Origin: a virus
Direction: 5' to 3' (one strand)
Length of the DNA: 20,266 nucleotides
IMG/VR virus record: IMGVR_UViG_3300020020_000532
Coordinates: 1-20,266 of that record
The translations under genes and the position numbers were made by a program. The first letter of the stretch is position 1; every line of letters starts with the position of its first letter. Of this stretch, positions 2,518 to 17,555 are shown piece by piece. Below the pieces are notes generated by a model, which ran no database searches, had not been told where the DNA came from, and saw nothing but the letters and a program-made list of their open reading frames with translations.

Positions 2518-2613
2518 ATGAACTCCACTATTCCGTCCCCGCCTCCAGTCATCGTGGCGGAGCCTCGTCCAGTCATTCTGCAGCCAACGGATTCGTCCTT
2601 CACCATCCGCTAA
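2518..2613 (+). CDS. 31-aa leader ORF coupled to the small terminase candidate
   Basis: A 31-codon ORF, Pro-rich at the start (STIPSPPPVIVAEPRPVI), with no recognised domain. Its ATG lies six bases after the -10 box of the promoter, so it would be read from a leaderless mRNA. Its stop overlaps the ATG of the next gene as TAATG (2611-2615). The arrangement suggests that its translation loads ribosomes for the downstream gene, which has no Shine-Dalgarno of its own. Whether the peptide itself has a function is unknown. Confidence 0.55.
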   Translation: MNSTIPSPPPVIVAEPRPVILQPTDSSFTIR

Positions 2614-3173
2614 TGCCAGACTTAGCCACAGCCGTCAACAGGTTCCTTCAACCGTCCATGCCAGAGAATGGCTCGAACGGGAATATCATTCCGTTTAAGG
2701 AAGCGAAGGAATCGAGCTTGATGCGGACTGTTGGCTTCATGGCGTTACAGGGGATGGGTGCGAACCAGATTGCGTTCGTGTTGAAACAGCCTGAGGACAA
2801 GATCCAGGCGATGTTTGAAGATCCTACGTTGCAGGAAATGTTTGCACGTGAGATCGAAGCTCGTGGGAAGTATGCGCTGAAGCAGCTCGCGAGTGGTATG
2901 GCAGTCGACGTGATGTTGGCGCTGCATAAGATCGTGCTGGACCCGGCAGCTAAACCTTCGGAGAGAATTAATGCAGGCAAGGAAATTCTGGACCGAGCGT
3001 TCGGACGTCCTACGCCGGCCAACAAGAACGGCGATGCTGACGGTGACGAAGGCTTCGTTGGTGCAAATCCTGAGGAAACTCTAGCGAAGCTGGAAGCAGA
3101 ACTGGAGGCCAAACTTCAGGAGAGAGAAAAACGGCGCGCTGCGCTACAAACCGACAATACTCAAAGACCATGA
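2613..3173 (+). CDS. Putative terminase small subunit
   Basis: A 186-residue protein. Residues about 38-70 (MALQGMGANQIAFVLKQPEDK and following) read as a helix-turn-helix. Residues 118-133 contain RINAGKEILDRAFGRP, a motif common near the end of phage small terminases and related DNA-packaging proteins. The tail (about 150-178) is a Glu/Lys/Arg coiled coil (LEAELEAKLQEREKRR), suited to oligomer formation. Small terminases recognise the phage DNA and stimulate the large subunit. It starts in TAATG overlap with the leader ORF and ends in ATGA overlap with the next gene. An internal ATG at 2658 (MPENGSNG) is an alternative start. The large subunit is 5 kb away, which is unusual, so the assignment rests on motif and length. 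Confidence 0.65.
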   Translation: MPDLATAVNRFLQPSMPENGSNGNIIPFKEAKESSLMRTVGFMALQGMGANQIAFVLKQPEDKIQAMFEDPTLQEMFAREIEARGKYALKQLASGMAVDVMLALHKIVLDPAAKPSERINAGKEILDRAFGRPTPANKNGDADGDEGFVGANPEETLAKLEAELEAKLQEREKRRAALQTDNTQRP

Positions 3174-3616
3174 CCCCGCTCACCACTACCCAATCCGGCC
3201 CCAACGACAAGCGGGCCAACCCACTCGCGGATGCCTTCAGTGACATCCTTGACTTGTTCTCCGGAGACGTCAAAGACGGCACAGCCGTTGCGACGGCCGA
3301 CGGACTCACTACGGGAATCCTCGACGATTCGCTTGGCTTCGTGGCCGTTACGTCCGCAAGTGCCAACAACATCGTCACGCTTCCCGTTCCTCGTCCAGGT
3401 CGCTTCTTGCTCGTCTCTGTTGGGGCGAACGGCTGCGAACTGAGAACCACCGATCCGACCACAATCGGAATCAATGGCGGTGTCGGAGCAGCCGCGGAAT
3501 CCGCCCTGGCTGCCAACGTCTGTGCGATTTTGTACGGCGTGTCCGCCACTGCCTGGCGTGGATTCCAGCAGACCTCTGCTGGTGTCCTCACACTCGTGGA
3601 AGTTGCTGCTCCTTAA
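3170..3616 (+). CDS. Putative virion protein (fibre or decoration-like)
   Basis: 148 residues, rich in Ala, Thr, Val and Gly and poor in charge. It reads as alternating beta strands (FVAVTSASANNIVTLPVP, RFLLVSVGANG, VCAILYGVSATAWRGF) after a 35-residue polar N-terminus. The pattern matches small beta-sandwich proteins on phage heads or tails, but I do not recognise a specific family. Coupled to the previous gene by ATGA, and followed by an 80-base gap with a 13-bp hairpin. Its place before two further beta-rich proteins suggests a fibre or decoration module. Confidence 0.6.
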   Translation: MTPLTTTQSGPNDKRANPLADAFSDILDLFSGDVKDGTAVATADGLTTGILDDSLGFVAVTSASANNIVTLPVPRPGRFLLVSVGANGCELRTTDPTTIGINGGVGAAAESALAANVCAILYGVSATAWRGFQQTSAGVLTLVEVAAP

Positions 3617-3635
3617 TTCCCGCTCGCCAGCGGAA

Positions 3636-3682
3636 CGTTGCTGCTCAGTGTTTATCATAGCCTGTAGACCTGGGCAGCAACG
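3636..3682 (+). other. Intercistronic 13-bp hairpin
   Basis: CGTTGCTGCTCAG (3636-3648) pairs with CTGGGCAGCAACG (3670-3682) with one G-U pair and a 21-base loop. It fills the gap between two virion genes, ending 14 bases before the next ATG. No T-tract follows, so it is more likely an mRNA processing or stability element than a simple terminator. GTTGCTGCTC also occurs at 3602-3611, giving the right arm a second possible partner. Confidence 0.6.
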
Positions 3683-3696
3683 AAACCTTTCCAACC

Positions 3697-4386
3697 ATGC
3701 TTACCACATTCGATATCTTCAATCGCAGTGTTGAAGTGCAGGACCGGATTCTTATCCGTTCTGGTTTCGAGTTGGCTCGAACGAAATTGACGAACGATGG
3801 TTCGACGTACGCACTTGGTGCAGGTGAAGCACTGAACTTGGTTCTCAAGCCGAAGAACAAGTTCGACTCGGCTAACTCAGTTGTGGTTAATTTGGCAAAC
3901 ACGGATCTGCACGTGGGATCGAGTGAGTATCGGAAAGAGTTCGGGACTAATACCGCCGGCGTTCTTGCTGAGCTGAAGTCCAACGCAAACCCTTCCGACG
4001 ATTTACCTGAAGCGTTGTTCTCAGCGACCTGGGTGTGGCGCAATGCTGGCGACACGGTTCAACGTCCGTCAGCGACGTTCGACCTAGTGATCATTAACTC
4101 CGCATACGATGGAGTGATCACCACACCTGAGGTCCCTTCAGGTTTCCACAACCCAGGCTACTGGACTTCCATCGACGACGGCTCGCCTACCGCGTTGAAC
4201 GCGATCATTACCGTCGGTGGTGCGTTGCCACTGATGACGGTCATCTTCACCGCAATTGGTGGAGTGTTCAACGTCTGGCAACTTCAGACCAACACTGGTT
4301 TGATCGCCTCGGACGGCGTGAACTTCCAACGTCCACTCGACTACAACGCAGTCGGAAACAATGTCATTTGGGTCAGAATCGCGTAA
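3697..4386 (+). CDS. Putative virion protein, unknown family
   Basis: 229 residues, beta-rich, without membrane segment or signal peptide. The first part has alternating strands (NLVLKPKNKFDSANSVVVNLANTD). The C-terminal half is Gly/Val/Ile rich (ALNAIITVGGALPLMTVIFTAIGGVFNVWQL) and ends in strand-like segments. The motif content fits a structural protein such as a fibre base or a small tail protein, but I cannot assign a family. It starts with CCAACCATG without a Shine-Dalgarno, 14 bases after the hairpin. It ends four bases before the fibre gene. Function is inferred only from its neighbours. Confidence 0.6.
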   Translation: MLTTFDIFNRSVEVQDRILIRSGFELARTKLTNDGSTYALGAGEALNLVLKPKNKFDSANSVVVNLANTDLHVGSSEYRKEFGTNTAGVLAELKSNANPSDDLPEALFSATWVWRNAGDTVQRPSATFDLVIINSAYDGVITTPEVPSGFHNPGYWTSIDDGSPTALNAIITVGGALPLMTVIFTAIGGVFNVWQLQTNTGLIASDGVNFQRPLDYNAVGNNVIWVRIA

Positions 4387-4390
4387 TCAC

Positions 4391-6283
4391 ATGAAAGCAT
4401 ACAGCTTAACTCTGTTGTTTCTTTTCACCCTTGTCGGCGGACTCTCCGCGCAGACGAGCTTCGAGGACATTCGCAAGAATGGGGTCACCAATGAAGTGAC
4501 CGAGAGTTTCAAGATCGGGGCTGGAACTACGCTGGACATTCTCAATCTGGGAAGTCTGGCGTTTGCTACAGGCTATGTGTGGAACATCGACGGCACTGTG
4601 GTGAGTGTGACTGGTGTGGAATTGAACCACCTCGTTGGTGTCAGTTCGAACATCCAGACTCAGTTGAACACCAAGCAGGACGTCACCACAATCCTCACTG
4701 AGTTCTTGAGTCTCGTGCCAGCTGCTGACAGGTTGCCGTACTTTGACAGTCCTACCACAATGGACACAACGGCGTTCACTCCACTGGCCAGGTCTCTGTT
4801 GGACGACGTTAGTTCACCTGATATGCTTGACACGTTGGGTGTTCATGCGTTCATTCAAACGATGCTCAATGACCCGGACGCTGCAACTGCACGTGGTACC
4901 ATTGGAGCTCTTGGAACTAGTGGAACCAACACGAACAGTGGAGAATTCGTCAACACCAACACGACTAACGCCACTACAAGCGACGGCACCACAGGAGCCA
5001 TTCGCACCCTTGGTGGTATGAGTGTTGCACAGAACTCTCGTGTGGGAGGCGCTTTGATTGTGGTTGGCAATATTTCCGCAGGCCCTCAGATTGGTGCAAC
5101 AGATCTATTTGCAACCGATGACGTACAAGCCTTCGATGATGTAATCGCCAACGATGATGTCGTTGCTGCTGGTTCAGTTATTGGTGCAGAAATCATTGGA
5201 GACTTGGCCCAGGACGGTTACATTCATGGGTTGCGAATGGTAACGAACGCTACAGACCCCGCCAACGACATTGATGTTCTCACAGGACTAGCTAGCAGTG
5301 CTGGCTCATTTAACTCACAGTCAGGCTTCGCTGTACTTCCCACTCCAGCAGTTATTAAGTCTATGCACTGGACAGGTTTCAGTCCTGCAGCAAACACCGA
5401 CCGCTCCTTGACCAAGCGTATTGACGTCAACTGGGTCCAAGGAAACAACAATGGAATGCTGGACAACGGTTCCATCGCCAACGGAACCTACCACATTCAC
5501 GTAATCAAGAACCCCGCGACTCCCAGATCAGACATTCTTGCATCTTTATCCCACGATGATGTTGAGTACGTATCAATCACCATTGCAACGCCCGCAGTCG
5601 TCACTTGGGGCACCACCGGCAACGGCCATGGACTAGTCGCCGGCTCGAGTGTTCGTTTCTACAACGATGGCACTCTGCCCACAGGCATTTTGGAAGACAC
5701 GGACTACTGGGTGATCGCAGCAGGACTTACCGAAACCCAGTTCCAAATCTCCACAGTCCTAGGCGGCGCTGCGGTTAACACGTCAGGCAGTATCACTCAA
5801 ACCACCTACTGCCAAGCGCGCCCAATCCTCCCTACTGGTTACACACACTTCAGACGAATCGGATCAATCGTTCGTGTCGGCGGTTCAAACCTTGCCTTCC
5901 GTCAAGTCGGCGACAAGTTCTTCTTGTCCACTCCAACTCTGGACCTGGACACGACCGCAGTTACCACAGCGCGCACCACCGCAACCCTGTCAGTCCCGAA
6001 AGGCATCGTCGTTGACGCCATGGTACGCTGCCTAGCTTCCAACGCAGCTGCTGGTGTGTTAGTCAACATCGGACCAACACTCGACGCCGACGTCGCACCT
6101 AGCATTACGGCAGTACCGGGCACAACTCTTCGTACTCAGGTTGCAGCGAGTGTAGTGCACGGCGGTCCCGAACAAATTACGACTGACACCCTCGGGCAAG
6201 TTTACGCGAGGAGTTCAGCCGCAACCACAACCGTCCGAATCTTCACTCTCGGTTGGATCGATAACAGAGGACAAATCCGATAA
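4391..6283 (+). CDS. Tail-fibre-like protein with Sec-type signal peptide
   Basis: 630 residues from the ATG at 4391; an upstream ATG (4361) would overlap the previous gene and bury the signal. Residues 1-20 are a classical signal peptide: Lys2, hydrophobic core LTLLFLFTLVGG, LSA before Gln21. Then come ELNHLVGVSSNIQTQLNTKQ, a repeat typical of phage tail fibres, and a Thr/Asn/Gly-rich shaft (about 180-290). The C-terminal half holds a widespread fibre domain (KRIDVNWVQGNNNGMLDNGS, later GYTHFRRIGSIVRVGG). It is interrupted at about 395-470 by another known fibre module (GHGLVAGSSVRF, GILEDTDYWVIAAGLTETQF). The role is probably receptor binding. A signal peptide on a phage fibre is unexpected: it could be exported to the host surface or be a relic of an acquired adhesin. 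Confidence 0.75.
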   Translation: MKAYSLTLLFLFTLVGGLSAQTSFEDIRKNGVTNEVTESFKIGAGTTLDILNLGSLAFATGYVWNIDGTVVSVTGVELNHLVGVSSNIQTQLNTKQDVTTILTEFLSLVPAADRLPYFDSPTTMDTTAFTPLARSLLDDVSSPDMLDTLGVHAFIQTMLNDPDAATARGTIGALGTSGTNTNSGEFVNTNTTNATTSDGTTGAIRTLGGMSVAQNSRVGGALIVVGNISAGPQIGATDLFATDDVQAFDDVIANDDVVAAGSVIGAEIIGDLAQDGYIHGLRMVTNATDPANDIDVLTGLASSAGSFNSQSGFAVLPTPAVIKSMHWTGFSPAANTDRSLTKRIDVNWVQGNNNGMLDNGSIANGTYHIHVIKNPATPRSDILASLSHDDVEYVSITIATPAVVTWGTTGNGHGLVAGSSVRFYNDGTLPTGILEDTDYWVIAAGLTETQFQISTVLGGAAVNTSGSITQTTYCQARPILPTGYTHFRRIGSIVRVGGSNLAFRQVGDKFFLSTPTLDLDTTAVTTARTTATLSVPKGIVVDAMVRCLASNAAAGVLVNIGPTLDADVAPSITAVPGTTLRTQVAASVVHGGPEQITTDTLGQVYARSSAATTTVRIFTLGWIDNRGQIR

Positions 6284-6285
6284 TA

Positions 6286-6501
6286 ATGAAACCCGAAGTC
6301 ATTATTCTTGCTGTCTTGACCTGCATCTGCACGTCCTGCAGCCTGCTTGGGAGCAAAACTCCCACCATGAAATCCGTCACAGAGCATCACTCCGTCGACG
6401 GCGCTGTCACAACGACCACTACGGAAGTCCCGTATGTCGCTCCACCAACCGTTCAGGAAACATCCCACGCGGAGGCAACGGTCAAGTTGTTTGCTGAATG
6501 A
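6286..6501 (+). CDS. Small putative lipoprotein
   Basis: 71 residues. A hydrophobic stretch (VIILAVLTCIC) is followed by TSC-S at Cys18, a plausible lipobox with Ser at -1. The mature part is short, Thr/Val-rich and contains VPYVAPP. Such small phage lipoproteins next to lysis genes are often outer-membrane spanins (Rz1 type) or exclusion proteins. Here the proline content is modest and Glu4 in the n-region is atypical. It starts two bases after the fibre stop (TAATAATG) and overlaps the next gene by ATGA. Assignment as lipoprotein is fair; the exact role is inference. Confidence 0.6.
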   Translation: MKPEVIILAVLTCICTSCSLLGSKTPTMKSVTEHHSVDGAVTTTTTEVPYVAPPTVQETSHAEATVKLFAE

Positions 6502-6905
6502 AAGGATTTTCTTACCTTCTTGCGCTTTGTCTGTGCTGCTGCACTACACGTCCCAAGGTGACGTACGTCGATCCTGCAACAGGCCAGACAGTCAGTGTTG
6601 ACCTCGGAGGCACGTTTGGTGCTGAGGCCGACGGAATTCTCGCCTCCGTGGAACTTCCCAACGGAACCAAAGCGAAGTATTCAGCCATTCGTGAGGACTC
6701 CACAAAGGTCCTCGGACAAGCAATTACAACCGGTGGTGCGGTCGCAGGTGGAATCATCCTAAATCGGGGTGAGGAAATCCGCGAAGTTGGTGCCACAAAA
6801 CGGCACGCAATTGACAGCGCCACCACACTGGGGCTGGACAAAGGTGTGACGGAAAGGGCAACCTTCGTCCCGACAGTTACTCCACCCGCTCAAGTTGCAC
6901 GCTAA
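6498..6905 (+). CDS. Putative lipoprotein
   Basis: 135 residues. The N-terminus (KGFSYLLALCLCCC) is a short signal with a cluster of Cys at 11, 13, 14 and 15, one of which should be the lipid-anchored residue. The mature part has YVDPATGQTVSVDLGG, a Gly-rich hydrophobic segment (about 73-89, GQAITTGGAVAGGIILN) that might insert in a membrane, and a polar tail. Not recognised as a family. ATGA overlap with the preceding lipoprotein suggests the two act together, in the envelope. Next to a membrane coiled-coil protein and an endolysin, a part in lysis is plausible. Confidence 0.55.
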   Translation: MKGFSYLLALCLCCCTTRPKVTYVDPATGQTVSVDLGGTFGAEADGILASVELPNGTKAKYSAIREDSTKVLGQAITTGGAVAGGIILNRGEEIREVGATKRHAIDSATTLGLDKGVTERATFVPTVTPPAQVAR

Positions 6906-6906
6906 C

Positions 6907-7344
6907 ATGCACCAATTCTCACAGCCGTGGCTCAATGATTTTTACTTTGTATGCAGGGACCTAGGGTTCCCTATTGTGGTTGCGGCTGTGGTGATTGGGT
7001 GCATTGTAATGGGGGTGAGGGCGGTGTGGAATAAGCTCTCACCCTTGTATGTGGATCTTCTGATTGCGTCGAGAGAACGAGAAGAGTCCAGGAAGCAGGA
7101 GCATAAGGAACAGACGCATATCATGAACCAGTTAGCAGAGAAGACTTTGGCCATTTCGGAGTCTACTCATGTTGCAGTGAAGCAAGCTTTCGGTTTGTCT
7201 CAGAAGATGTACGTGCTTCTGGAGAGAATGACAGGCGTTAGTGAACGAGCCACTGACGTTGCGGCAACGGCTGCTGAGACTGCTGCAATCGCGGCAGGTG
7301 TTATTCCGGTAACCAATAAAATGTATAAAGGTGGGCAGCAGTGA
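6907..7344 (+). CDS. Membrane protein with coiled coil (spanin-like candidate)
   Basis: 145 residues from the ATG at 6907; the upstream in-frame alternative is a TTG. A single transmembrane segment lies at about residues 20-40 (FPIVVAAVVIGCIVMGV). It is followed by a long charged helix (about 50-105, SREREESRKQEHKEQ and on) and an Ala-rich helix (ATDVAATAAETAAIAAG). The architecture is that of an inner-membrane spanin (Rz type), and lipoproteins lie upstream, but the order is reversed relative to lambda and no sequence similarity is evident to me. The gene is markedly G-rich compared with its C-rich neighbour upstream. It could also be an unrelated membrane structural protein. Confidence 0.55.
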   Translation: MHQFSQPWLNDFYFVCRDLGFPIVVAAVVIGCIVMGVRAVWNKLSPLYVDLLIASREREESRKQEHKEQTHIMNQLAEKTLAISESTHVAVKQAFGLSQKMYVLLERMTGVSERATDVAATAAETAAIAAGVIPVTNKMYKGGQQ

Positions 7345-7423
7345 TCCATACGAAGCAATTCGAAAGTCTCGAAGAGGGAAGCCACGCCTCGAACAGTGGG
7401 TAACCATTAAAACAGTAAGTATC

Positions 7424-7657
7424 ATGTTGAAGAACTCTTCATGGAAAACGTCAATCGCTGGCGCGGGTGCAATCTTTGGCGCACTTGGTGCCATCCTGGT
7501 GGAAGTCTCCACCGGCGGTGACAATGGCAAGCTGGACATGGAGCTCGTGCTCGCAATGTTCGGCATCGTGAGTGCAGGGGTTGGCAACCTGTTCTCGAAG
7601 GACAAGGACAAAACCAACGCTCCAAGTCCGGGCGTTACCAAACAAACCGACAAATGA
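7424..7657 (+). CDS. Holin-like small membrane protein
   Basis: 77 residues from the ATG at 7424; a GTG at 7331 would add 31 mostly polar residues and overlap the previous gene. Residues 5-28 (SSWKTSIAGAGAIFGALGAILVEV) and 40-62 (LVLAMFGIVSAGVGNLFSKD) form two hydrophobic stretches with a short Gly/Asp-rich turn, then a charged tail. This matches the pattern of small phage holins in which W-K-T-x-I-A-G opens the first helix and a GLF-x-K/R-D motif closes the second. Holins form the membrane lesion that lets the endolysin out. It overlaps the endolysin start by ATGA. Confidence 0.65.
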   Translation: MLKNSSWKTSIAGAGAIFGALGAILVEVSTGGDNGKLDMELVLAMFGIVSAGVGNLFSKDKDKTNAPSPGVTKQTDK

Positions 7658-8112
7658 GTGACCAGGTCAAACTCCTACGTCATGCTCGCACGTTCCTGGG
7701 TCAAGGGATACGTGAAGTTCCGGGAACTAAGTCCCATCCTCAGATTGCAGCTTGGATTGCTCGTACGGAGAAGGAGAATCCAACCGATCTGAATCGTGAC
7801 GACTCGCGCTATTCGTGGTGCGGCGTCTTCGTCGGGTGCATGTGCTTGGACGTGGGATTGCCTGTGCCGGACTTGTTCCAGCGCGCAATCAAATGGGCTC
7901 AGTGGGGCGATCAGGTGCTCCTTAAGGATCGTGAGCCAGGTGATGTGATGGTGTGGCAGACTGGTGCGAACCAGTTCCACGTCAACATCTACGTCCAGGA
8001 CGTGATCACCCACAAACTGTTTGAGTGTCTGGGAGGCAATCAGTCTAACTCACTGAACCTTCAGAACTTCAAGTCTGACATCTTCATCGCCTGTCGGCGA
8101 TTCTACGCTTAA
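7654..8112 (+). CDS. Endolysin, TIGR02594 family (NlpC/P60-CHAP-like peptidase)
   Basis: 152 residues, the usual length for this family. Visible landmarks in order: GIREVPG at 18-24, WCGVFV with Cys56 as probable nucleophile, WAQWG at 81-85, EPGDVMVW at 94-101, FHVNIY with His109 as probable base, and CLGGNQSN with Asn129. These match the TIGR02594 pattern, a cysteine peptidase fold related to CHAP and NlpC/P60 that cleaves peptidoglycan peptides. No signal peptide, so it needs the holin just upstream, to which it is coupled by ATGA. It ends the first rightward gene block and is followed by a large hairpin. Confidence 0.85.
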   Translation: MSDQVKLLRHARTFLGQGIREVPGTKSHPQIAAWIARTEKENPTDLNRDDSRYSWCGVFVGCMCLDVGLPVPDLFQRAIKWAQWGDQVLLKDREPGDVMVWQTGANQFHVNIYVQDVITHKLFECLGGNQSNSLNLQNFKSDIFIACRRFYA

Positions 8113-8114
8113 CA

Positions 8115-8184
8115 TGGAAGAGCCCTTAGTCGTTTTCGGGTTGTCTGACGGTCCTCCCCGTCGGGTCTTCTGAGGGCTCTTCCA
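8115..8184 (+). other. Large nested hairpin between endolysin and TerL
   Basis: A 15-bp stem (8115-8129 with 8170-8184, one G-U pair) begins three bases after the endolysin stop. Inside it is a second 7-bp hairpin (8145-8151 with 8158-8164, loop TCCTCC). The 3' side is followed by AGCAGTTTATATG, without a proper U-tract. TerL starts ten bases later. It could be a partial terminator, an RNase processing site or a translation regulator. A 19-codon ORF (8114-8173, TAACATG junction) runs through it. Confidence 0.7.
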
Positions 8185-8193
8185 GCAGTTTAT

Positions 8194-9792
8194 ATGAACA
8201 AGGATGTAATCAACAAGATCCGTGAGAAACAGCGCATGCTTGCTCTGTTGGATCAGGAGACTATTATCCTTAAATCGGACGGACTGAAGTATTACCGTCC
8301 AGCAGGTTGGAAGCACGACCTGTTCCATCGTAAAGGACACTACAAATACCGTTACCTGCGCACGGGTAACAGGTTCGGGAAGTCGGAGTTGGGTGTTGTT
8401 GAGGACATTGCCTGGTGCCGAGGCGAGCGTTCGTGGTACAACGAAACCGACCCGGCGAGATACTCGGGAATTCCCAAAAGGCATGTGCGCATTTTGCTGA
8501 TCGTTGAAGACTGGGGCAAGTCGGATGACGTGTTCACCAACCTCGAGAATGGTAAGTTCTGGAAGTACATTCCGAAAGACGCCTTTGCAGGGTACGATGT
8601 TGGACCGAGCGGCGACATTGATACGATCAAGATCAAGAGTATCTGGGGCGGAACCAGTGTGATCAAGATCCAGACGATCGCCTCGTTCAAACAGTCACCC
8701 CAACGCGGTGAGTCCTCTCAATGGGACGCCATTCATGTCGACGAACCGTGCCCAGAAGCACTGTGGACTGCAGTGAGTCGTGGTTTGATGGACACTGGCG
8801 GCTCTGCTTGGTTCACCTGCACGCCGCTTATCCATCCCTGGATCAATCGGTTCTTCATTCCACGTGGAAAAGCCGTCACGGAGAAGACCGATCCGTTCGA
8901 AAACGAGAAGAAGTTCGTCATCTTGGGCTCGTCCTACGACAACAAGATGTTGACGAAGGAGCACATTGACGACTATGCGAAGACCCTCAAGAAAGAGGAA
9001 CGAGCAGCTCGCATTACGGGCATTCCTTCAGGTGCTGGTGGGTTTGTTTACGATGAGTTTGACCGTAACATCCATCTCTACACTGAAGACGATCTCAAAA
9101 TTATGGGTTGGGCCGGGTTGAATGACCCGCCAAGGACCGTTTGGGACACGGACGCAGAGGGAAATCAGTATGTGAAGAAGCCTGGGTACATGATTCGGGC
9201 TGCAATTGACACGCACGAACGCACACCGCAGGCAGTATTGTTCGAGGCCACCATTGGGACTGGCGACGAGTGCTACATTTTCTACTTTGCTGAGCTGTTT
9301 GAGACCCGAATCATCGCAACGACTGCGAATCTGTTCAACGAAGTCGTCCAGGGTCGCAATTTGTTCCAGACTCTCATCGATCCGCGTGCATACATCGAGT
9401 CTCCAATCGACCAATCTACGCTTGCGGGTGAGTTTTTGAACCACGGCATCATTGGTGAGAAGGCTCCCAAGGACTTGAAGCGTGGAATTCTGAAAGTCAA
9501 GGAATACTTGACGAAGCGCGACAGTAAAGGACGCCCAGTCGTGCAGTTCTCAGAGAATTTACGGGAAACTCTCTTCGAATTCGAAGAATACATGTGGGAT
9601 TTGAAAGATCCTGACAAGCCGATTGACGAAAATGACCACATGATGGAAAACTTGTACCGTTTGATGTCAACACACCCCGGTTACGTGGACCTGGACGAAA
9701 AGACCAAGGCCCATTTCGGTCAGAGGGAGGTTTTCGAACCTCAGGACATGGACATTGAAGTCTCACTTGAAGTTGATGGCTATGATGACTGA
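8194..9792 (+). CDS. Terminase large subunit
   Basis: 532 residues, normal for TerL. ATPase: Walker A GNRFGKS at 58-64, Walker B IHVDE at 180-184 (Asp183, Glu184), coupling motif FTCTP at 207-211. Nuclease (RNase H-like): Asp339 in AAIDTHERTPQA, Asp396 in LIDPRA, and Asp478/Asp481 in the DENDHMMENLYRL region. This is the motor that translocates and cuts phage DNA during packaging at the portal. The GNRxGKS form is typical of T7 gp19/terminase_6-like enzymes. It starts ten bases after the large hairpin, without a Shine-Dalgarno, and overlaps the portal gene by 11 bases. Confidence 0.93.
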   Translation: MNKDVINKIREKQRMLALLDQETIILKSDGLKYYRPAGWKHDLFHRKGHYKYRYLRTGNRFGKSELGVVEDIAWCRGERSWYNETDPARYSGIPKRHVRILLIVEDWGKSDDVFTNLENGKFWKYIPKDAFAGYDVGPSGDIDTIKIKSIWGGTSVIKIQTIASFKQSPQRGESSQWDAIHVDEPCPEALWTAVSRGLMDTGGSAWFTCTPLIHPWINRFFIPRGKAVTEKTDPFENEKKFVILGSSYDNKMLTKEHIDDYAKTLKKEERAARITGIPSGAGGFVYDEFDRNIHLYTEDDLKIMGWAGLNDPPRTVWDTDAEGNQYVKKPGYMIRAAIDTHERTPQAVLFEATIGTGDECYIFYFAELFETRIIATTANLFNEVVQGRNLFQTLIDPRAYIESPIDQSTLAGEFLNHGIIGEKAPKDLKRGILKVKEYLTKRDSKGRPVVQFSENLRETLFEFEEYMWDLKDPDKPIDENDHMMENLYRLMSTHPGYVDLDEKTKAHFGQREVFEPQDMDIEVSLEVDGYDD

Positions 9793-11665
9793 GAAAATCA
9801 AGAAACTCCTCAAAGAAGAGCACCTGGACGAGTGGCACGGTAAGCTGCTCGGCAAGGTGAAGGGACTCGTTGCGAAAAGTCGCGCGGATATGTCCAACTA
9901 CTACTCGGTGTGGGACGAGCGTCACCGCACGTACCGGGCTGAGAAACTTCGCGATCGTAAGGACCGCAAGGCTGCGGAAGTCAAGGATCCTGTCAAACAG
10001 GTGGTACCTCTCAGTTACGCCCAAGTCGACACCTTCGTGGCATTCGGGTTGATGACCCTGATGCAACGGAAGTACGTCTATGAGTTGGATTCCACGGGAG
10101 CAGAAGACTTCCAGAAGGCCACTCCAGCTGAGATGCTCGTTGATCGCGACATGCGCAACAGCAAGCAGACCCAGTTGCTCTATCAATTCCTTCTGGATTG
10201 CGCCAAGTTCTCTCTCGGTGCCATCAAATGCTGCTGGGTGGTTGAGTATGACTGGATTCCGATGCAGGTTCCGGACAAGCCACCCGTGGTCATTAACGGC
10301 GTGACTACTGAAGAAGGCACGACCAAAATTGAATGGAAGAAAGTGGTCACGTGGAGAGGCAACAAGCTCTACAGCGTGTCCCCATATCGTGTCTTTCCTG
10401 ACACTCGCATCCCGTTGACGCGCTATCAAGAAGGTGAATTCCTCGCGACTGAAGAGGAAACCACGTTCAACCACATGCGCAAACAGGAGAAGTTTGGAGT
10501 CTTCGCCGGCACCAAGCACGTGCAGCCTTACAAATTGGGGGACTTCGCCAAACGTGGCGTCACCAAGACCCAGTTCATGAAGGGTGATGACGACAAGGAG
10601 AACGTGATTCTCACTGAAGTCTATGTCGACCTCATTCCGAAAGACGTCGAGTTGCCTGGTGACGAGAAACTCGGCGAAGAAGACTTCCCAATTCGCTACG
10701 TTGTCACCTACGCCAACGACAGCCGCATCGTCCGTCTCGAACCCTACGGCTACCTGAGCCGCGTGTTTCCAGTGTTTGTGCAGCAGTTCAACCCGGACAT
10801 GCACGAACTCATCAACCAGTCCCTGGCTGAGATCGTTGGTAAACTCCAGGAAGTGGCTGACTGGTTCTTCAACAGCCGTGTTGCCTCAGTTACCCGCACA
10901 CTCGACAACCAGATGGTGGTTGATCCGTCAGGTGTGGATATGGCAACGGTCAACATCAAGTCTCGCGTCATCCTCCTGAAGAAGAACGCAGCACGTCAGG
11001 ATCCTCGCAAGTTCGTGCACCAACTCTCCGTCACCGACGTCACTGCACGCCACTTGGAGGATATGAACACGGTGGCTGGTTTGATGCCGCAGATCACCGG
11101 GGTTTCCGAGAACTCCATGGGCGTGGCAACGCAGGGTCGCCGAAGTGCTTACGAAATGCGTGCAGTTTCTCAAGGCTCGACGGCGCGCATTCGCAAAGTC
11201 TTCTCCCTCATGTGGGAAGGCGCGCTGGCTCCAATGGGACAGACGATGATTACCAACCAGCGCCAAGGTCAAGACTTCACCACCTTTCAGCTCGTCGTTG
11301 GTCAAGACGCCACTCCAGAGGCGTTTGCAGAGTTCAAGGGAACTCCCGAGGAACTCGTCCAGAACAACGACCTCATTGTCTTCGATGGTACATTACCATC
11401 AGACAAGCTCTACCTTGCTCAGTCTCTTCAGGAAATCTTGACAGTGCTCCTGTCCAATCCTGAAGCGGCCGTGCAATTCAACCTCGATCCGAAGGCTGTA
11501 ATGGAGGAAATGTACAGACTTCGCGGCGTGACCAAACTCCAACGATTCGCTTTCCAAGGAGAGAACGCAATGCAGCAGATCGCCAACCTAGTAGCACAAC
11601 AACTAGCAGCCCAAAATGGACAACCCGCTGGACAGTCAGGAGGAAACCCCGGACCTCAAGTTTAA
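9782..11665 (+). CDS. Portal protein
   Basis: 627 residues from ATG 9782 (9785 is equally possible; both overlap the TerL stop). The N-terminal part is helical and charged; then SPYRVFPDTRIPLTRYQEGE, a segment common in portals of podo-like phages. Next is PVFVQQFNPDMHELINQSLA with a long helix (the usual stem region, about 330-375). Later come ITGVSENSMGVATQGRRSAYE, a typical portal signature, and a Gln/Ala-rich C-terminus. Portals form the dodecameric ring through which DNA enters and leaves. Position straight after TerL supports the call. No protease or fusion domain is seen. Confidence 0.85.
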   Translation: MMTEKIKKLLKEEHLDEWHGKLLGKVKGLVAKSRADMSNYYSVWDERHRTYRAEKLRDRKDRKAAEVKDPVKQVVPLSYAQVDTFVAFGLMTLMQRKYVYELDSTGAEDFQKATPAEMLVDRDMRNSKQTQLLYQFLLDCAKFSLGAIKCCWVVEYDWIPMQVPDKPPVVINGVTTEEGTTKIEWKKVVTWRGNKLYSVSPYRVFPDTRIPLTRYQEGEFLATEEETTFNHMRKQEKFGVFAGTKHVQPYKLGDFAKRGVTKTQFMKGDDDKENVILTEVYVDLIPKDVELPGDEKLGEEDFPIRYVVTYANDSRIVRLEPYGYLSRVFPVFVQQFNPDMHELINQSLAEIVGKLQEVADWFFNSRVASVTRTLDNQMVVDPSGVDMATVNIKSRVILLKKNAARQDPRKFVHQLSVTDVTARHLEDMNTVAGLMPQITGVSENSMGVATQGRRSAYEMRAVSQGSTARIRKVFSLMWEGALAPMGQTMITNQRQGQDFTTFQLVVGQDATPEAFAEFKGTPEELVQNNDLIVFDGTLPSDKLYLAQSLQEILTVLLSNPEAAVQFNLDPKAVMEEMYRLRGVTKLQRFAFQGENAMQQIANLVAQQLAAQNGQPAGQSGGNPGPQV

Positions 11666-11666
11666 C

Positions 11667-11981
11667 ATGAGTGCCGCGCAGGCACGAGAACGGCTCGAGA
11701 CTGCACGAACATTCATCATGACCGAAGCCTATCTAGACTTCAAAGAGGAATTCGGTTCAATCGTACTTGGTGCAGACGCCGTAATCGACGCAGCACCTGA
11801 GAGTTTTCAAAATTTCGTCAACCGTGAACAAGCAATCGGTGAGAGGCGCATCGCTAAACAAGCCATCGAATACTTCGACGACTACATCAAAACGATGCGA
11901 GTGCTTTTGGACCAGATAAACGCCGCAACGGTGGCCGAGTCTGAACCCGAGAACCCAGAGACAGCCCAAGACCAACAATGA
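11667..11981 (+). CDS. Small helical protein between portal and scaffold
   Basis: 104 residues from the ATG at 11667 (TAACATG after the portal stop). An ATG at 11616 would give 121 residues and a 50-base overlap. The AGGAGGA at 11638-11644 is about 22 bases from the chosen ATG, too far for normal use. The protein is mostly helix (AAQARERLETARTFIMTEAY, ERRIAKQAIEYFDDYIKTM) with an acidic Glu/Pro/Gln tail. Small helical proteins at this place are common in podo-like phages, but their function is usually unknown. Ends in ATG overlap with the scaffold gene. Confidence 0.6.
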   Translation: MSAAQARERLETARTFIMTEAYLDFKEEFGSIVLGADAVIDAAPESFQNFVNREQAIGERRIAKQAIEYFDDYIKTMRVLLDQINAATVAESEPENPETAQDQQ

Positions 11982-12700
11982 ACACTGACACAAATACCAA
12001 CGTAGCCGCTGGTGACACCACCCAGACACCGCCGGCATCCCCGTCCTACAGCCCAGAGGACATCGCCAACGCAGTTCGCGGCGTCATGGACGAACGCGAA
12101 TCGCAGCAGAACCAGCCCCCGGCCGAACTCTCACCCGAACAGCGTGACCAGTTCATGAAGGTCTGGAACCCTGACGACAACTTCCACAACTCGTGGAACC
12201 AAGCCTTCGCTGAAGGTGCAACGCCCGAACAACGCAACGCGGCTTTCGTCGCCCTGCGCTCGGGAATGATGCAGCAGGCCCAACGCTACTCCGACCTGTT
12301 GGTCGATCACCGCATGAATGCGCTGCTTCAGCGTTTCGAGCCGGTGATGAAACACTACCAGGACACGCAACGCCAGACGGTCGAGAATACCTTCTACGGG
12401 GAGTACCCCGCGCTGAAGGAATTCCCCGAGATCGTTCGCGCCGTGGCCGCGGACTTGGCGTCCAAAGGGACGACAGCCGAAACGCCTGCAAAGGCGCGAC
12501 AGATTATTGCGAAAGGAGTCGAGACCGTGCTCAAGAAATTGAACCCCGGTTTCACACTCCCCATGCAAGAAACGCAAGAGAAACCCGTAAACAATCCAGG
12601 AGGAATGCCACCAATGGCTACTCTTTCAGGTGGAGGAAACGGCGGCGGCACCAAACCAACCAACGGTGCGGTCGACGAATTCTCCATTTGGAAGAAATAG
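11978..12700 (+). CDS. Putative scaffolding protein
   Basis: 240 residues, very rich in Gln, Asn, Glu and Pro. The N-terminal 50 residues are disordered (TDTNTNVAAGDTTQTPPASP). The middle is helical with LSPEQRDQFMKVWNPDD and FEPVMKHYQDTQRQTVENTF. The tail is Gly/Pro-rich, ending DEFSIWKK, a short terminal helix of the kind that binds the capsid protein in scaffolds. No signal or membrane segment. Position directly before the major capsid gene is the standard place for a scaffold, which directs procapsid assembly and leaves before DNA enters. Family is called from context and composition, not from a motif. Confidence 0.7.
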   Translation: MNTDTNTNVAAGDTTQTPPASPSYSPEDIANAVRGVMDERESQQNQPPAELSPEQRDQFMKVWNPDDNFHNSWNQAFAEGATPEQRNAAFVALRSGMMQQAQRYSDLLVDHRMNALLQRFEPVMKHYQDTQRQTVENTFYGEYPALKEFPEIVRAVAADLASKGTTAETPAKARQIIAKGVETVLKKLNPGFTLPMQETQEKPVNNPGGMPPMATLSGGGNGGGTKPTNGAVDEFSIWKK

Positions 12701-12745
12701 TCGGTCAGGAGCATTGCTAAGCACCCCAAACCCAAATAATAAACC

Positions 12746-14131
12746 ATGAGCCTACTCGGTCTCGTCTCTGGCGCGACATTCGCCACTGAAGGATTCCGTG
12801 CCAACAACCACAGGCGCGAGGTGTTTCACCAATTCCCAAATGGTGCAGCAACCTTGACCGGTCTTCTGTCGTTGATGGAAACGGAAATGACGGACCACCC
12901 GGAGTTCGGGTGGTTCGAGAAACGCTGGCGTTCCGTCCAGACGCAACTCACGGCGCCAGGTGGCGTCTTCCCCATCTCCCTTTCTGGGGGTGATACGGCG
13001 GTTGCGTCTCCGGCAACACTAACTCAAGGAACAGTCTACCGCCTCAAGGTGGCCTCGTCCGCGGAATTCCGCGTCACGCAGGTGCTGCTCCTTCAACGGG
13101 TTCCCACGTCCAACACGACCTTCGTTGAAGTTCGTGGAGTCGTGGTGAACGTGCCCTCGGCGGATCGCGTCGAGATCCGTGTCCTCGAAACTGTGACGGG
13201 CGTTCTCAACAGCGCCAACAACACGACCGATGCCACCAAGGGGCCTGTCAACGTGTATGCCATCGTCATCGGCACTGCCAATGAAGAAGGTTCCAACTCG
13301 GTCGGTAACGGCCGTTTGATCCTTCCGTGCAATCCGATGAACTACACGCAGATCTTCCGCACACCGTTTTCGTTCACGAACACGGCGCTTGAAGAACCTG
13401 CTACCTTCGACAAGACCGGTATCTACCGTGAGAAGTCGACGGACAACTGCATCGACCACATGACCGAAATCGAGAAGGCGTTCCTCTTTGGCACGCGTTC
13501 GACACAGATGGTCAACAACGGTGAAGGTGAAGACGTGCCCCTGCGCACGTGCGGTGGCATCGAGTGGTACCTGCGCAAGTACGAGGAAGCGAACTCAATC
13601 TACCGTGGCACCGGTTCTCCGGCCATCACGTTGGATGCCGATCCGGACAAGCGCATCATCACCAACTCGACCGGCACCATGACCAAGAGGACTTTCAACG
13701 GCTACATGCGCCGTGCCTTCAAGGTCACCAACAACAAGACCTACGAAAAGTTGGTTTTCTGCGGCGGCAACGTCCTGACGACCATCAACGATATGGTCGA
13801 GTCGCGTATCGTGATCAACAAGAACATGAAAGCCGAGGACACCTTCGGCATGAATGTCACCACGATCGAGACGCCGCACGGCATCCTGCACTTCAAGTCG
13901 CACCCGCTGTTCAACGAGAACCCCGTTCTCGAGTCCGCGATGCTGATCATCGACGTGCAGAACATGCGGTATCGCCCCCTCGGGAAACGCGATACCAAGC
14001 TCAAGAAGCTGATCCAAAACAACGGTGCGGATCGCCGTAAGGATGAGTGGCTTACGGAAGCCTCCCTCGAAGTGCGCAAGCCCGAGGCGAACATGCTCAT
14101 CTACAACTTCAACGAGGTCACCCTGACCTAG
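12746..14131 (+). CDS. Major capsid protein (SU10/DUF5309-like)
   Basis: 461 residues. Features seen: PFSFTNTALEEPATFDKTG, then HMTEIEKAFLFGTRSTQM (about 239-256) and RTCGGIEWYLRKY (about 268-280). Near the end come TTIETPHGILHFKSHPLF, SAMLIIDVQNMRYRPLG, and EWLTEASLEVRKPEANMLI. The EIEKAFLFG...GG order and the late E-x-SLEV segment match the SU10/DUF5309 group of HK97-fold capsid proteins. A beta-rich part at about 85-180 is extra and may form a surface protrusion. Preceded by the scaffold with a 45-base gap (ATAATAAACCATG, no Shine-Dalgarno). This protein builds the icosahedral head. Confidence 0.85.
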   Translation: MSLLGLVSGATFATEGFRANNHRREVFHQFPNGAATLTGLLSLMETEMTDHPEFGWFEKRWRSVQTQLTAPGGVFPISLSGGDTAVASPATLTQGTVYRLKVASSAEFRVTQVLLLQRVPTSNTTFVEVRGVVVNVPSADRVEIRVLETVTGVLNSANNTTDATKGPVNVYAIVIGTANEEGSNSVGNGRLILPCNPMNYTQIFRTPFSFTNTALEEPATFDKTGIYREKSTDNCIDHMTEIEKAFLFGTRSTQMVNNGEGEDVPLRTCGGIEWYLRKYEEANSIYRGTGSPAITLDADPDKRIITNSTGTMTKRTFNGYMRRAFKVTNNKTYEKLVFCGGNVLTTINDMVESRIVINKNMKAEDTFGMNVTTIETPHGILHFKSHPLFNENPVLESAMLIIDVQNMRYRPLGKRDTKLKKLIQNNGADRRKDEWLTEASLEVRKPEANMLIYNFNEVTLT

Positions 14132-14180
14132 TTGGCAACCGTGTTGGGAGGAAGTTACTAACTCTCTTCACAATCAAACG

Positions 14181-14186
14181 AAAGGA
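14181..14186 (+). promoter_or_regulatory. Weak Shine-Dalgarno-like AAAGGA
   Basis: AAAGGA lies 11 bases before the ATG at 14198 in an A-rich leader. It is the only plausible Shine-Dalgarno-like site I see at a gene start in the rightward block, and the spacing is long. Confidence 0.3.
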
Positions 14187-14197
14187 AAACAAACACA

Positions 14198-14401
14198 ATG
14201 TCCAGTGAGAAACTTCGCAAGTCGGGCGGTGTCGGGATGGATTTCGACGGCACCGAAGGTGAGGCACCCTATCAACAGGGGTCCGCGCTCGCCAAAGAAC
14301 ACCCTCCGCACGTGAGTGGTGAAAACAAAATGGGACAGGAAGTGATCTCCAAGAAGCCGACGACCGGCACTCTCGGCGATCGCGGTGTCCAGGGAAGCTA
14401 A
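14198..14401 (+). CDS. Small protein after the major capsid gene
   Basis: 67 residues, polar, Gly/Lys/Ser-rich, with no clear secondary structure and no recognised domain (MDFDGTEGEAPYQQGSALAK). Preceded by a 66-base A-rich leader with a weak Shine-Dalgarno-like site. Its place directly after the capsid gene could suit a head decoration or minor head protein, but its length and disorder-like composition give no real support. The start is well defined because there is no nearby alternative. It is probably expressed with the head genes. Confidence 0.5.
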   Translation: MSSEKLRKSGGVGMDFDGTEGEAPYQQGSALAKEHPPHVSGENKMGQEVISKKPTTGTLGDRGVQGS

Positions 14402-14444
14402 ACCAGCTTCTTCAACCGTTCATGCCAGACTCTGGCCCTAACCT

Positions 14445-15227
14445 ATGCCTGCCGATCTAACGCCGATCCTGAGTGCAGTCAAGCTGTATCTCCAAGTAAA
14501 TTACCCGGAAGTCTCAACAGGACCTGCGGGAAGTCAAGGTGGAGCTGCTGTTACTGAAGCTGCATTTCAACAGCTCTGCATGCTCGCGTTAAACAACGCA
14601 AGAAAGTTTGCGGAGTTGCAACACGACTGGCGATGTGAGGAGGTCCGGGTTAGGGCCACTATTCCGGCGAATTCCAAGGTGCCGATGACGGCCTTGGTTG
14701 ATTACTGGAATGCAGAAGAGACGTGGGATATTAAATCCCTTCAGAGCGCGTATATCGTTGTCGATGACGTCACGCCTGAGTCCCTACGGCCGATTGAAAT
14801 TACAACGGCGAAATCGTGGGCACGGAAGCAGATGGATATTGATGACGCGTATGCGGAGTCGGAGTTCGAGACGCGGTATCGCGGAGAGGCTATTTCGGAC
14901 TTCAATAGCCGACTGTCGCAGTTGATCATTATGGGTGATGACATGTTCCTTTATCCAGCGGTGGATGAAGATGTGGACATCGTCCTGGATGGGTATAAGT
15001 GGTTGGCTGAGTATGAGAAGTCAACCAGTGTGGATTTCTTCACACAACGAGGCACTGCGTATTTGCAGTTCGCCGCAATTTGCGAGGCCAACCTTCTGGC
15101 CAAGACTTTTGTTATGAGACAAGAAGGAAACATTGCCCCTCCCACACGTGAGCGTGATGAGAACTTGGCGGTTCTTATCAACCATGACAGCTATTCGGTG
15201 GAAGGTGGCGCAGTCCAGGACCTCTAA
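14445..15227 (+). CDS. Putative head-tail adaptor protein
   Basis: 260 residues, mostly helical. ALNNARKFAELQHDW (about 49-63) and the later LYPAVDEDVDIVLDGYKWLAEYE (about 168-190), followed by DFFTQRGTAYLQFAAICEAN, resemble adaptor proteins of SU10-like podoviruses. These close the gap between portal and tail. The protein is hydrophilic, without membrane parts. It follows the capsid module directly, the usual place for head completion genes. A 12-codon ORF (14422-14460) overlaps its start in another frame. It ends in TAATG overlap with the next gene. The + strand turns G-rich here compared with the capsid gene. Confidence 0.65.
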   Translation: MPADLTPILSAVKLYLQVNYPEVSTGPAGSQGGAAVTEAAFQQLCMLALNNARKFAELQHDWRCEEVRVRATIPANSKVPMTALVDYWNAEETWDIKSLQSAYIVVDDVTPESLRPIEITTAKSWARKQMDIDDAYAESEFETRYRGEAISDFNSRLSQLIIMGDDMFLYPAVDEDVDIVLDGYKWLAEYEKSTSVDFFTQRGTAYLQFAAICEANLLAKTFVMRQEGNIAPPTRERDENLAVLINHDSYSVEGGAVQDL

Positions 15228-16333
15228 TGAGTATCGGAAGCGGCAGTGCAGAGTTCACACCATTGCAGGCCATGTCGAAAGACGGCCCGCCATTGATGCA
15301 CTACGAGTATGTACCACAGATCCAGCAATATGTCAGGAAGTGGGAAGGGTCGATCCCGAATGCAGATACTTCACCGGCCCAGCGTTTTGGAGACATTTTC
15401 GTTGAAATCAAAAACGAACGTAATCGTAAGGAAAGTCGGATTAGTTTGTCAACGGTTATTACGGGCACCTCAACTTCAGGGACGTTCGTTTCGAGGGTTA
15501 ATAAGGTTAATGAGCTTGCACTCGAGAAGCTCATGCCGTATATCGCGACGATTACTAAGACGACGCAGGTTGTGCCTGCTGGAACAAGTCCTGATGCCCT
15601 TAGCTTTACAAGATTGAGGTCTGAGGTGCTGTACTTTGATACGGTGCACGCACAGAAGGAGACCTGGGACGTTACTGGGTTTATCACGTTGACTGGGTCG
15701 AAGAGCGATCCAGAGACGGATTTTCCTGTGGTTATTGTTAGAGAGGTGTTCGCGACCAATCCTGGGAATTCGAGCTCGGCGGGTATTGAGGATGAGGTTG
15801 AACAGGTTGATGAGTTTCACTGGCTAAGAACCAGGAACACGATCAGCTCTGGTGCGACGGTTGTGTCGTATGACAACATCCGATACACGTTCCCGAGGTT
15901 ACTGACTGGCTGGTCGTTCGACAGCATCTTCTTGGAAGCGCAGGGGAGGACTTATCCGATCTTTGAACCGCTCCTCCGTGAGGAAGAGACGAAGATCACA
16001 GTGGCCAAAGTGACGACGACGTTTCATAGTACAGTGCAGGTTCCTCCGGTGCTGTACTCGTTTAAGACCGAGCCTCTTCGCTACGACGGGATCATCTTCA
16101 ATGTGGACCTTCCTGCGGTGTTGAGAAACACTGGTTCGTTGTTTGTTACCACGCATGAGGAAGATTCGTACTATGGACCTCTGATTGGTGAAAGTTTCAC
16201 GTGGGGCTCAACCAACATAACAGCCTCGCAGTATTTAGGGTCCATTGGGCAGTTGAAGGTCGTTGGGTTTACCAGTGTTCCGTGGCGGTATAACCTGTTC
16301 AAGACGGTGAAAACCGAGATCACGTTGGAATGA
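15227..16333 (+). CDS. Putative tail or virion structural protein
   Basis: 368 residues. I do not recognise the family. Beta-rich throughout (VLYFDTVHAQKETWDVTGFITLTG, TKITVAKVTTTFHSTVQVPP) with a more polar N-terminus (PLMHYEYVPQIQQYVRKWEG) and no signal or coiled coil. The size and position after the adaptor fit a tail tube, nozzle or baseplate-type component of a short tail. TAATG overlap with the previous gene and ATGA overlap with the next show a tight unit of three. The region is G/T-rich on the coding strand. Confidence 0.6.
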   Translation: MSIGSGSAEFTPLQAMSKDGPPLMHYEYVPQIQQYVRKWEGSIPNADTSPAQRFGDIFVEIKNERNRKESRISLSTVITGTSTSGTFVSRVNKVNELALEKLMPYIATITKTTQVVPAGTSPDALSFTRLRSEVLYFDTVHAQKETWDVTGFITLTGSKSDPETDFPVVIVREVFATNPGNSSSAGIEDEVEQVDEFHWLRTRNTISSGATVVSYDNIRYTFPRLLTGWSFDSIFLEAQGRTYPIFEPLLREEETKITVAKVTTTFHSTVQVPPVLYSFKTEPLRYDGIIFNVDLPAVLRNTGSLFVTTHEEDSYYGPLIGESFTWGSTNITASQYLGSIGQLKVVGFTSVPWRYNLFKTVKTEITLE

Positions 16334-16911
16334 AGCACTACAACAATGATGCCTATGAGTCTACAGTTTGGAGGGACCCAGACAAAACGGTCTCTCGTAG
16401 AAAGAGGCACGTGCAGAAGAATGTAGTTAGCTGCCCGATCTTACCTAACTCGGTTTACATTAAGATTTCGAACTTTACCAGCTTCTGGATCACTCCTGGA
16501 TATTCAAACGGACAGCTTGCTACGTATCTTGGAAGTGCAATTTCTGTGGTGACAGAGTTCAAACTTGGTTTGCAAATTCCCTTGGAGTGGAAAGGGCACG
16601 GTCTTTGGGTTGGATTGTGGCCGGTTATCACCAGTGGTGACCCGTTCTTCATCATCGACCCTGCAAGTCCTTGGGTCTGGGCGATTTACAACGAGGACTT
16701 GGATACGTCAATCGGAGATCCTCCAGGTGGAGGCGGACCTGAGGGTGTGAGAGTTTTCAAGAACTACAACCAAGCGTTCTTCAGGAGCGAGGTTCCGGAC
16801 GATCCTGAATATCAGTTTCTAAGAGCTGCAGGGTATGGGAACTTTAGAGTTTACACTCCAGTAGATAGTTCAAGCTACGTGCAGTATGATCATCACCAAA
16901 ACTATCCCTAA
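16330..16911 (+). CDS. Unknown protein in the tail module
   Basis: 193 residues, rich in aromatic residues (FTSFWITPGYSNG, GLWVGLWPVITSG, ASPWVWAIYNED), basic at the N-terminus (RRKRH) and with a PPGGGGPEG linker at about 135. Not recognised. The aromatic beta-like composition fits a structural tail protein that packs against another. It starts in ATGA overlap with the previous gene and overlaps the following gene by 26 bases. Confidence 0.6.
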   Translation: MKHYNNDAYESTVWRDPDKTVSRRKRHVQKNVVSCPILPNSVYIKISNFTSFWITPGYSNGQLATYLGSAISVVTEFKLGLQIPLEWKGHGLWVGLWPVITSGDPFFIIDPASPWVWAIYNEDLDTSIGDPPGGGGPEGVRVFKNYNQAFFRSEVPDDPEYQFLRAAGYGNFRVYTPVDSSSYVQYDHHQNYP

Positions 16912-17551
16912 GTTTCGTGAAGCTTCTGGGCGGGTTTTATCAAGGGCCGCAAAGAAGGGATTCAGGACTGTCACTACCTGGGTTGACCCTGATGGAGACC
17001 CGGCTTACAGGATGGTTCCAGTTTTGGAAGGCAATGGATACAACAAGTTCACAGGAATGGGGATCACGTGTCCGACTCCATTCGTGCAGGATGCCACTGT
17101 GTTTGCTCCTCAGGCAACAAAGACATTTGATGATGTGGTGTTAAATCGTGAACGTGCTCGCTGGCTATTCCCCTTCGATTTGCTAAATGAATTCGGTTTC
17201 GCTACTTTCTACCTGCACATTGCATTCACGTTTGTTTACGATTGGTCACAGCCAGACTCAGAACTGCCTCCTGAAATTCACGAAATCGGCATTCAGAACC
17301 TGATTGCAGAAGTGGTCGTAAACGGAACGCCGGGACCTCCAGTTGTATACGGACAAACATTACCAGGACTCGCTGGAGTAACGTCAACCAGCGCCACGGA
17401 CTTTTCAATCGTGATTGGCACTTGGCAGTCTGGACGTAGCTCAGGTGTCAGAGTTGATCAGAAGTTTGTAGGAAATCCAAGTCTTTCATCATTTGTTACC
17501 GATGACGGTGACGAACTGACCATTCCATCATTCACCTTCTACCTCGCGTAA
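16886..17551 (+). CDS. Unknown protein in the tail module
   Basis: 221 residues from the ATG at 16886, whose reading frame overlaps the previous gene by 26 bases; the next ATG would remove over 40 residues. The N-terminus is basic (KTIPKFREASGRVLSRAAKK), followed by beta-like segments with many aromatic residues (ATFYLHIAFTFVYDW) and a Ser/Thr-rich end (TDFSIVIGTWQSGRSSG). No domain recognised. The overlap with its neighbour and the similar style suggest that the two are partners in the tail. The coding strand is less G-rich at its end than at its start. Confidence 0.6.
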   Translation: MIITKTIPKFREASGRVLSRAAKKGFRTVTTWVDPDGDPAYRMVPVLEGNGYNKFTGMGITCPTPFVQDATVFAPQATKTFDDVVLNRERARWLFPFDLLNEFGFATFYLHIAFTFVYDWSQPDSELPPEIHEIGIQNLIAEVVVNGTPGPPVVYGQTLPGLAGVTSTSATDFSIVIGTWQSGRSSGVRVDQKFVGNPSLSSFVTDDGDELTIPSFTFYLA

Positions 17552-17555
17552 AGCC

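Follow-up and report, generated by a model that had tools for sequence, protein, structure and literature searches.

A predicted Sec signal peptide on a tail fibre-type gene in the lysis region of an environmental PaP2-like podovirus

Is a phage tail fibre whose gene opens with an export signal still a part of the virion? Cytoplasmic assembly is generally assumed for tail fibres, and annotation pipelines consequently assign fibres to virions. The question is raised by IMG/VR virus record IMGVR_UViG_3300020020_000532, the 20,266 bases of which form the window analysed here, and in which a sequence-only reading had noticed a fibre gene beginning with a Sec signal peptide. Judged from its sequence, export of this fibre is likely, and the protein thereby deviates from the usual state of phage fibres, which are signal-less cytoplasmic proteins.

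The record carries a single late gene block on the plus strand (Table 1). A terminase small subunit (TerS)-like gene is followed by two small orphan genes (at 3170 and 3697), the fibre gene, two lipoprotein genes, genes for a transmembrane (TM) protein, a holin candidate and an endolysin-like protein, and the large terminase (TerL) gene. Downstream of TerL lie the portal, scaffold and major capsid protein (MCP) genes and the tail genes, the last gene being cut by the record end. From the gene preceding the fibre to the TM protein, the genes are tightly packed, with intergenic gaps of -4 to 4 bases. On the basis of its MCP relationship, the phage is classed as a PaP2-like podovirus; MCP, portal and TerL are homologous and in the same order, the MCP having been compared with isolates and the portal and TerL with IMG/VR relatives of the same MCP group. 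The PaP2-like podoviruses (Fredfastierviridae, Jamesmcgillvirus) have a related MCP (about 26% to PaP2) and the order terminase-portal-MCP in common with this phage, but a signal-bearing fibre was absent from PaP2 and the other cultured relatives in the stretches read (Tiera, Kuura, Mel-JY34 and VS-ABTNL-3), and likewise from those of the sequence-only EBPR podovirus 3 and Desulfofustis phage MD01. A host search of bacterial genomes yielded a single weak match, to a Rickettsiales MAG contig, and no host is claimed. None of the late-block genes (2613-20266) has a recognisable Shine-Dalgarno sequence, unlike genes of relatives L227, L235 and L274, which hints at a host using Shine-Dalgarno-independent initiation.

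Table 1. Features of the late gene block in the window
Feature	Position	Strand	Basis or remark
TerS-like gene, opens the late operon	2613..3173	+	Homologues 5' of TerL in relatives
Fibre gene with Sec/SPI signal peptide, 630 aa	4391..6283	+	PHROG, tblastn, AlphaFold2 fold of C-terminal half
Signal peptide MKAYSLTLLFLFTLVGGLSA, predicted cleavage A20/Q21	4391..4450	+	Rule-based caller, background tests
Fibre repeat module (ADRLPYF...LLDD...ATARGTIG)	4688..4918	+	47% and 39% identity to phage fibres
C-terminal fibre domain (RRIGSI...QVGD.F...GWID.RG)	5645..6280	+	15 relatives in other viral contigs, mostly signal-less fibres
Small lipoprotein gene, 71 aa, lipobox CTSC	6286..6501	+	Lipobox-like N-terminus
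Lipoprotein gene, 135 aa, lipobox CLCC	6498..6905	+	Homologue L109:1991-2389 (31%, E 4e-7)
145-aa protein, one N-terminal TM segment	6907..7344	+	KD19 2.66 at residue 19
Small two-segment hydrophobic protein, holin candidate	7424..7657	+	Peaks at residues 11 and 39; precedes endolysin
Endolysin-like protein	7654..8112	+	CHAP/NlpC-P60 below cut-off; phrog_1259 tail lysozyme domain
Large terminase	8194..9792	+	phrog_10250 (2.5e-4); bait for relatives L092-L171
Major capsid protein	12746..14131	+	phrog_1328 (1e-25); relatives L008-L087

The fibre open reading frame starts with MKAYSLTLLFLFTLVGGLSA followed by Q, which is the standard pattern for Sec export and cleavage by signal peptidase I (SPI). 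Among the initial residues, MKAYSLTLLFLFTLVGGLSAQTS, M1-K2 provides a positive n-region, LTLLFLFTLVGGL a strong hydrophobic core and L18-S19-A20 a cleavage motif with a small residue at -1 before Q21, and both a lipobox Cys and twin Arg are absent. The signal described in the sequence-only reading (Lys2, hydrophobic core and LSA/Q) was thus confirmed, and our rule-based caller also assigned the N-terminus to SPI. This caller was calibrated on eight E. coli signal peptides, all of which it recognises, and gave false positives for 3 of 652 terminase, portal, capsid and scaffold proteins (three near-identical proteins with the same wrong upstream GTG) and for 13 of 3,045 internal-Met pseudo-starts. 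Among 100,000 shuffles of the fibre's own composition, 270 (0.27%) matched its hydrophobicity and also had a cleavage site.

The start at 4391 lies 4 nt past the preceding stop, a spacing like that of other operon genes. There is an in-frame ATG 30 nt upstream, at 4361, the use of which would merely extend the n-region, and the signal is contained in the product of either start; the Shine-Dalgarno sequence is unable to choose between them because no gene in the window carries one. An internal start downstream of the signal, which had been named as a possible refutation, is unlikely from the sequence since the next in-frame ATG after codon 1 is codon 124.

By homology, in both sequence and predicted fold, the protein is of the phage tail fibre or tailspike type. 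It matches PHROG tail fiber profiles (1.3e-6 and 7e-4) and, in tblastn searches, fibres of Rhizobium and Pseudomonas phages and a protein of Microcystis phage Mwe-JY13; repeat modules are common to the window fibre, the fibres of Rhizobium phages RHph_N3_13 and Palo and the tailspikes of phages X14 and PBR31. Fibre repeats had been placed directly after the signal; fibre-type modules do follow it, but the repeat region proper lies further on, and the better phage-fibre matches start at aa 58-94. Relatives of the repeat module are encoded in 246 viral-contig stretches. The AlphaFold2 model of the C-terminal half has a confident beta-rich core (pLDDT about 90 there), for which the best viral matches in BFVD include annotated tail fibres and the PDB offers weak fold matches, the best of them carbohydrate-binding-module-like. 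The C-terminal domain is probably the receptor-binding tip. No Pfam match and no solved structure matching by sequence were found for the fibre, nor did our searches find a close relative of the whole protein; scans using the fibre, the MCP or TerL as a lone protein query detected no close relatives among IMG/VR viral contigs, whereas alignment queries did find relatives there. Phage tail fibres and tailspikes have a predicted C-terminal fold similar to that of the window fibre, but those whose N-termini were read lack a signal peptide.

These phage-fibre matches leave the proposed capture of the gene from a host adhesin unsupported. It is also decidedly improbable that the fibre is a moron, that is, a captured or domesticated surface adhesin or lectin that alters the stickiness of the infected cell and is unlinked to receptor blocking or virions. 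Some signal genes of relatives do have adhesin or lyase domains of a general kind (TIG, Big_5, He_PIG, LamG and PcRGLX), as a moron would, but the window gene is made of phage-fibre modules and has a tip domain common to ordinary phage fibres.

The two lipoprotein genes noted directly 3' of the fibre gene both encode lipobox-like N-termini. A homologue search with the 71-aa lipoprotein found none, and the homologue of the 135-aa lipoprotein, in L109, likewise adjoins TerL. The TM protein, for which the PHROG match was limited to a weak tape-measure hit, is holin- or i-spanin-like; together with the two lipobox genes, it might form a two-gene spanin of a lipobox o-spanin and a coiled-coil TM i-spanin. 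The endolysin-like protein has homologues in L114, L124 and L097, with TerL adjacency seen in the latter two. Of the suggested exported cassette, the adjoining exported genes hold good, but they mostly constitute a lysis module of two lipoproteins, holin-like genes and an endolysin. Between the endolysin and TerL genes, a hairpin (8115-8182) forms a long stem with an inner stem (-37.4 kcal/mol, z -5.6; equally stable shuffles, 0 of 200; T run absent) and is possibly a terminator or processing site separating lysis from packaging genes.

For the role of such a protein, we tentatively favour the reading that a receptor-binding fibre is exported by Sec late in infection and acts as a free protein on the host surface, by receptor masking or polysaccharide trimming. 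The fibre would pass through the host Sec translocon instead of remaining cytoplasmic, SPI would cut off residues 1-20, and the mature protein would fold in the periplasm. It would then cross the outer membrane to the cell surface or the medium, at the latest upon lysis by the adjoining holin, endolysin and lipoprotein genes, where it might mask the phage's receptor or trim surface polysaccharide. As a result, rival and sister phages would be kept off the infected cell and progeny would not stick to debris. This reading draws on the low false-positive rate of the signal peptide, on the virion-fibre modules of the mature part and on the close packing of the gene with lipoprotein and lysis genes in one operon; the need for a route across the outer membrane counts against it.

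That an exported phage protein may block a receptor has a precedent in T5 Llp, a lipoprotein that effects receptor-blocking superinfection exclusion (PMC9586334), and by analogy the window fibre would likewise target the receptor of the infected cell. Llp, which targets FhuA, is a small lipoprotein, whereas the window protein is large, fibre-like and of the SPI type with no Cys at the cleavage site, and thus falls outside the small outer-membrane or periplasmic lipoproteins of the Llp/Cor type. Another likeness is to WceF of Pantoea stewartii, an exported trimeric, phage-tailspike-like glycanase that acts on surface polysaccharide (PMC7949094); WceF differs in being encoded by a bacterial gene, in having a Tat signal instead of a Sec signal and in its role in the host's own biofilm. 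A limited search of the open-access literature turned up no account of tailed-phage fibres with signal peptides: in a DGR survey, the targets reported to have such peptides are cellular, not viral (PMC8144416), and the phiCbK head-filament paper describes no signal-peptide fibre (PMC3556154).

The relatives analysed, all from IMG/VR, comprised MCP relatives and two sets of TerL relatives. Baits for the first and second searches were picked regardless of signal peptides, and the signal rate of the third set is biased upwards because its TerL baits came from records already known to carry signal genes. Among non-core genes of at least 200 aa on the late strand of these MCP- or TerL-similarity-selected relatives (automatic ORF calls, rule-based predictor), a signal was carried by 42 of 264 genes on the TerL/lysis side, but by 2 of 322 located after the MCP and 1 of 164 in the portal-MCP interval (Fisher p about 1e-13), these automatic counts still including wrong starts, lysin N-termini and lipoproteins (L031, L121, L139, L140/L145/L146, L010 and L186, not used as examples). 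Counted by family, the figures were 42/206, 2/135 and 1/39, respectively. Of the post-MCP cases, L031 probably has a wrong start and L039 looks real. At least one signal gene of at least 150 aa was found in 11 of 49 TerL clusters (90% identity) of the window's clade, including the lysin N-termini of L121 and L139, and in 17 of 40 of a second clade, including some lipoproteins. Signals therefore lie on the TerL/lysis side and not in the structural block, a lysis-linked location that argues for secretion.

Fibre modules are present in several of these signal genes: GDTMTGPL (L129), WGSITGTL..QTDL with phrog_25379 (L132) and GVTSNIQSQI (L077), together with profile matches to tail-spike phrog_4636 (L171) and tail-fiber phrog_9017 (L168) and phrog_28473 (L086). 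Further signal genes encode domains that would suit surface-acting proteins (beta-helix, laminin-G-like, Ig-like, TIG or PcRGLX lyase-like), and several records (L129, L086 and L225) have runs of three to five adjacent signal-bearing genes; both features support secretion. Fibres with a predicted Sec signal are a recurrent class, not a one-off, and the dozens of unrelated fibre-like genes that bear a signal in uncultured relatives suggest secretion of fibres by some phages, in place of simple assembly into particles inside the cell. This recurrence makes it extremely improbable that the signal is an artefact, whether a chance hydrophobic N-terminus, an assembly chimera or a wrong gene start. 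The fibre comes from a single record, without close relatives or Shine-Dalgarno sequences fixing its start, but the signal has a low chance rate, the operon layout of the window resembles that of relatives, and 42 TerL-side families of long genes have signals.

Most fibre-like genes at the TerL-side locus of relatives are without a signal, and signal-plus and signal-less versions exist. The alignment of the signal-less fibre L235:8275 (Shine-Dalgarno sequence AGGAGG) with the signal-bearing L227:3320 and L266:3-1262 (the G008 gene) starts at the first residues of the former and at the mature N-termini of the latter two, L235 and L227 having their fibres at the same locus between TerL and portal. 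In L274, MKKLLFALLMALACVAHA followed by S precedes an N-terminal domain that opens the signal-less tailspikes of Shewanella phage X14 and Xanthomonas phage PBR31 and homologous proteins of Vibrio phages 1.184 and FGH and Thalassomonas phage BA3, and the C-terminal domain of L274 is that of the window fibre. In both comparisons, the signal lies ahead of the start of the signal-less protein. The complete gene start could be read in 13 of the 15 other viral contigs with the window's C-terminal domain; 11 are signal-less (the N-termini of L282 and L285 being T7-gp17-like by eye, without a Pfam match) and two (L272 and L274) bear signals. Among 63 distinct complete fibres with the window's repeat module in all of IMG/VR, one (L327) has a signal.

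The prevalence of signal-less genes at the locus, the persistence of signal-less alleles, which must be functional enough, and a GTG at codon 36 would fit a cryptic or partly used signal, with most of the fibre made from a later start or left uncut in the cytoplasm, and with no role for the hydrophobic N-terminus. We regard this as quite unlikely: besides the position of the first in-frame ATG, Shine-Dalgarno-like sequences stand immediately 5' of the codon at which the signal starts in L227, L274 and L327, and in two signal-bearing families the signal sequence varies while its hydrophobicity is kept and the first mature residues are conserved, which also argues for secretion.

A serious rival to secretion, if a somewhat doubtful one, is unusual assembly, in which the virion's receptor-binding fibre is exported, matures in the periplasm and joins finished particles there or outside after lysis. 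No other long fibre gene was found in the late operon of the window or in relative G002, and the fibre with the signal may accordingly be that of the virion itself. The sharing of one syntenic locus by signal-plus and signal-less alleles (L227 and L235), the retention in L274 of the domain that opens cultured tailspikes, in combination with the window fibre's C-terminal domain, and the conserved N-termini and variable C-termini, which look like a virion-attachment architecture, also speak for unusual assembly or against secretion, as does the absence of any detected decoy copy of a virion fibre's own tip in the same genome. P22 tailspikes are able to bind tailless heads in vitro, which would be compatible with late attachment. 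Against unusual assembly stand the runs of signal genes, some with enzyme-like domains, the lack of a precedent in tailed phages in the literature searched and, in favour of secretion, an additional separate signal-less fibre-like gene after the MCP, in the tail block, in G001, G003 and G004. It is unlikely that a class of environmental podoviruses routes real virion fibres through Sec, cleaves and matures them in the periplasm and attaches them during or after lysis, having no receptor-binding virion inside the cell. In the window, two orphan late genes (16330-17551; 193 and 221 aa) occupy the tail-block position of the signal-less gene of G001, G003 and G004, and it is possible that these orphans, at 16330 and 16886, are unrecognised virion receptor-binding proteins. 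The virion fibre could be either of them or a gene past the record end.

Recurrent Sec-tagged fibres and tailspikes would mean either that surface-acting fibres have repeatedly been secreted, for receptor masking, depolymerisation or a changed surface of the infected cell, or that virions are finished outside the cytoplasm. In consequence, the use of receptor-binding genes for host-range prediction from metagenomes would be altered.

Some signal-bearing fibre genes of relatives have neighbours of note. In L039 (11716-16363), genes resembling, by eye, those for a sulfotransferase, a radical-SAM/B12-type enzyme and glycosyltransferases lie between the MCP and the signal-bearing fibre, and in L266 (1291-3341) two glycosyltransferase-like genes, also identified by eye, adjoin the signal-bearing fibre gene. 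Finally, L013 encodes a signal-less 556-aa protein with a glycosidase/LamG-like look and, directly 3' of its TerS-like gene (1077-1457), a small exported-type fibre-like protein of 126 aa, which is the syntenic position of the window fibre.
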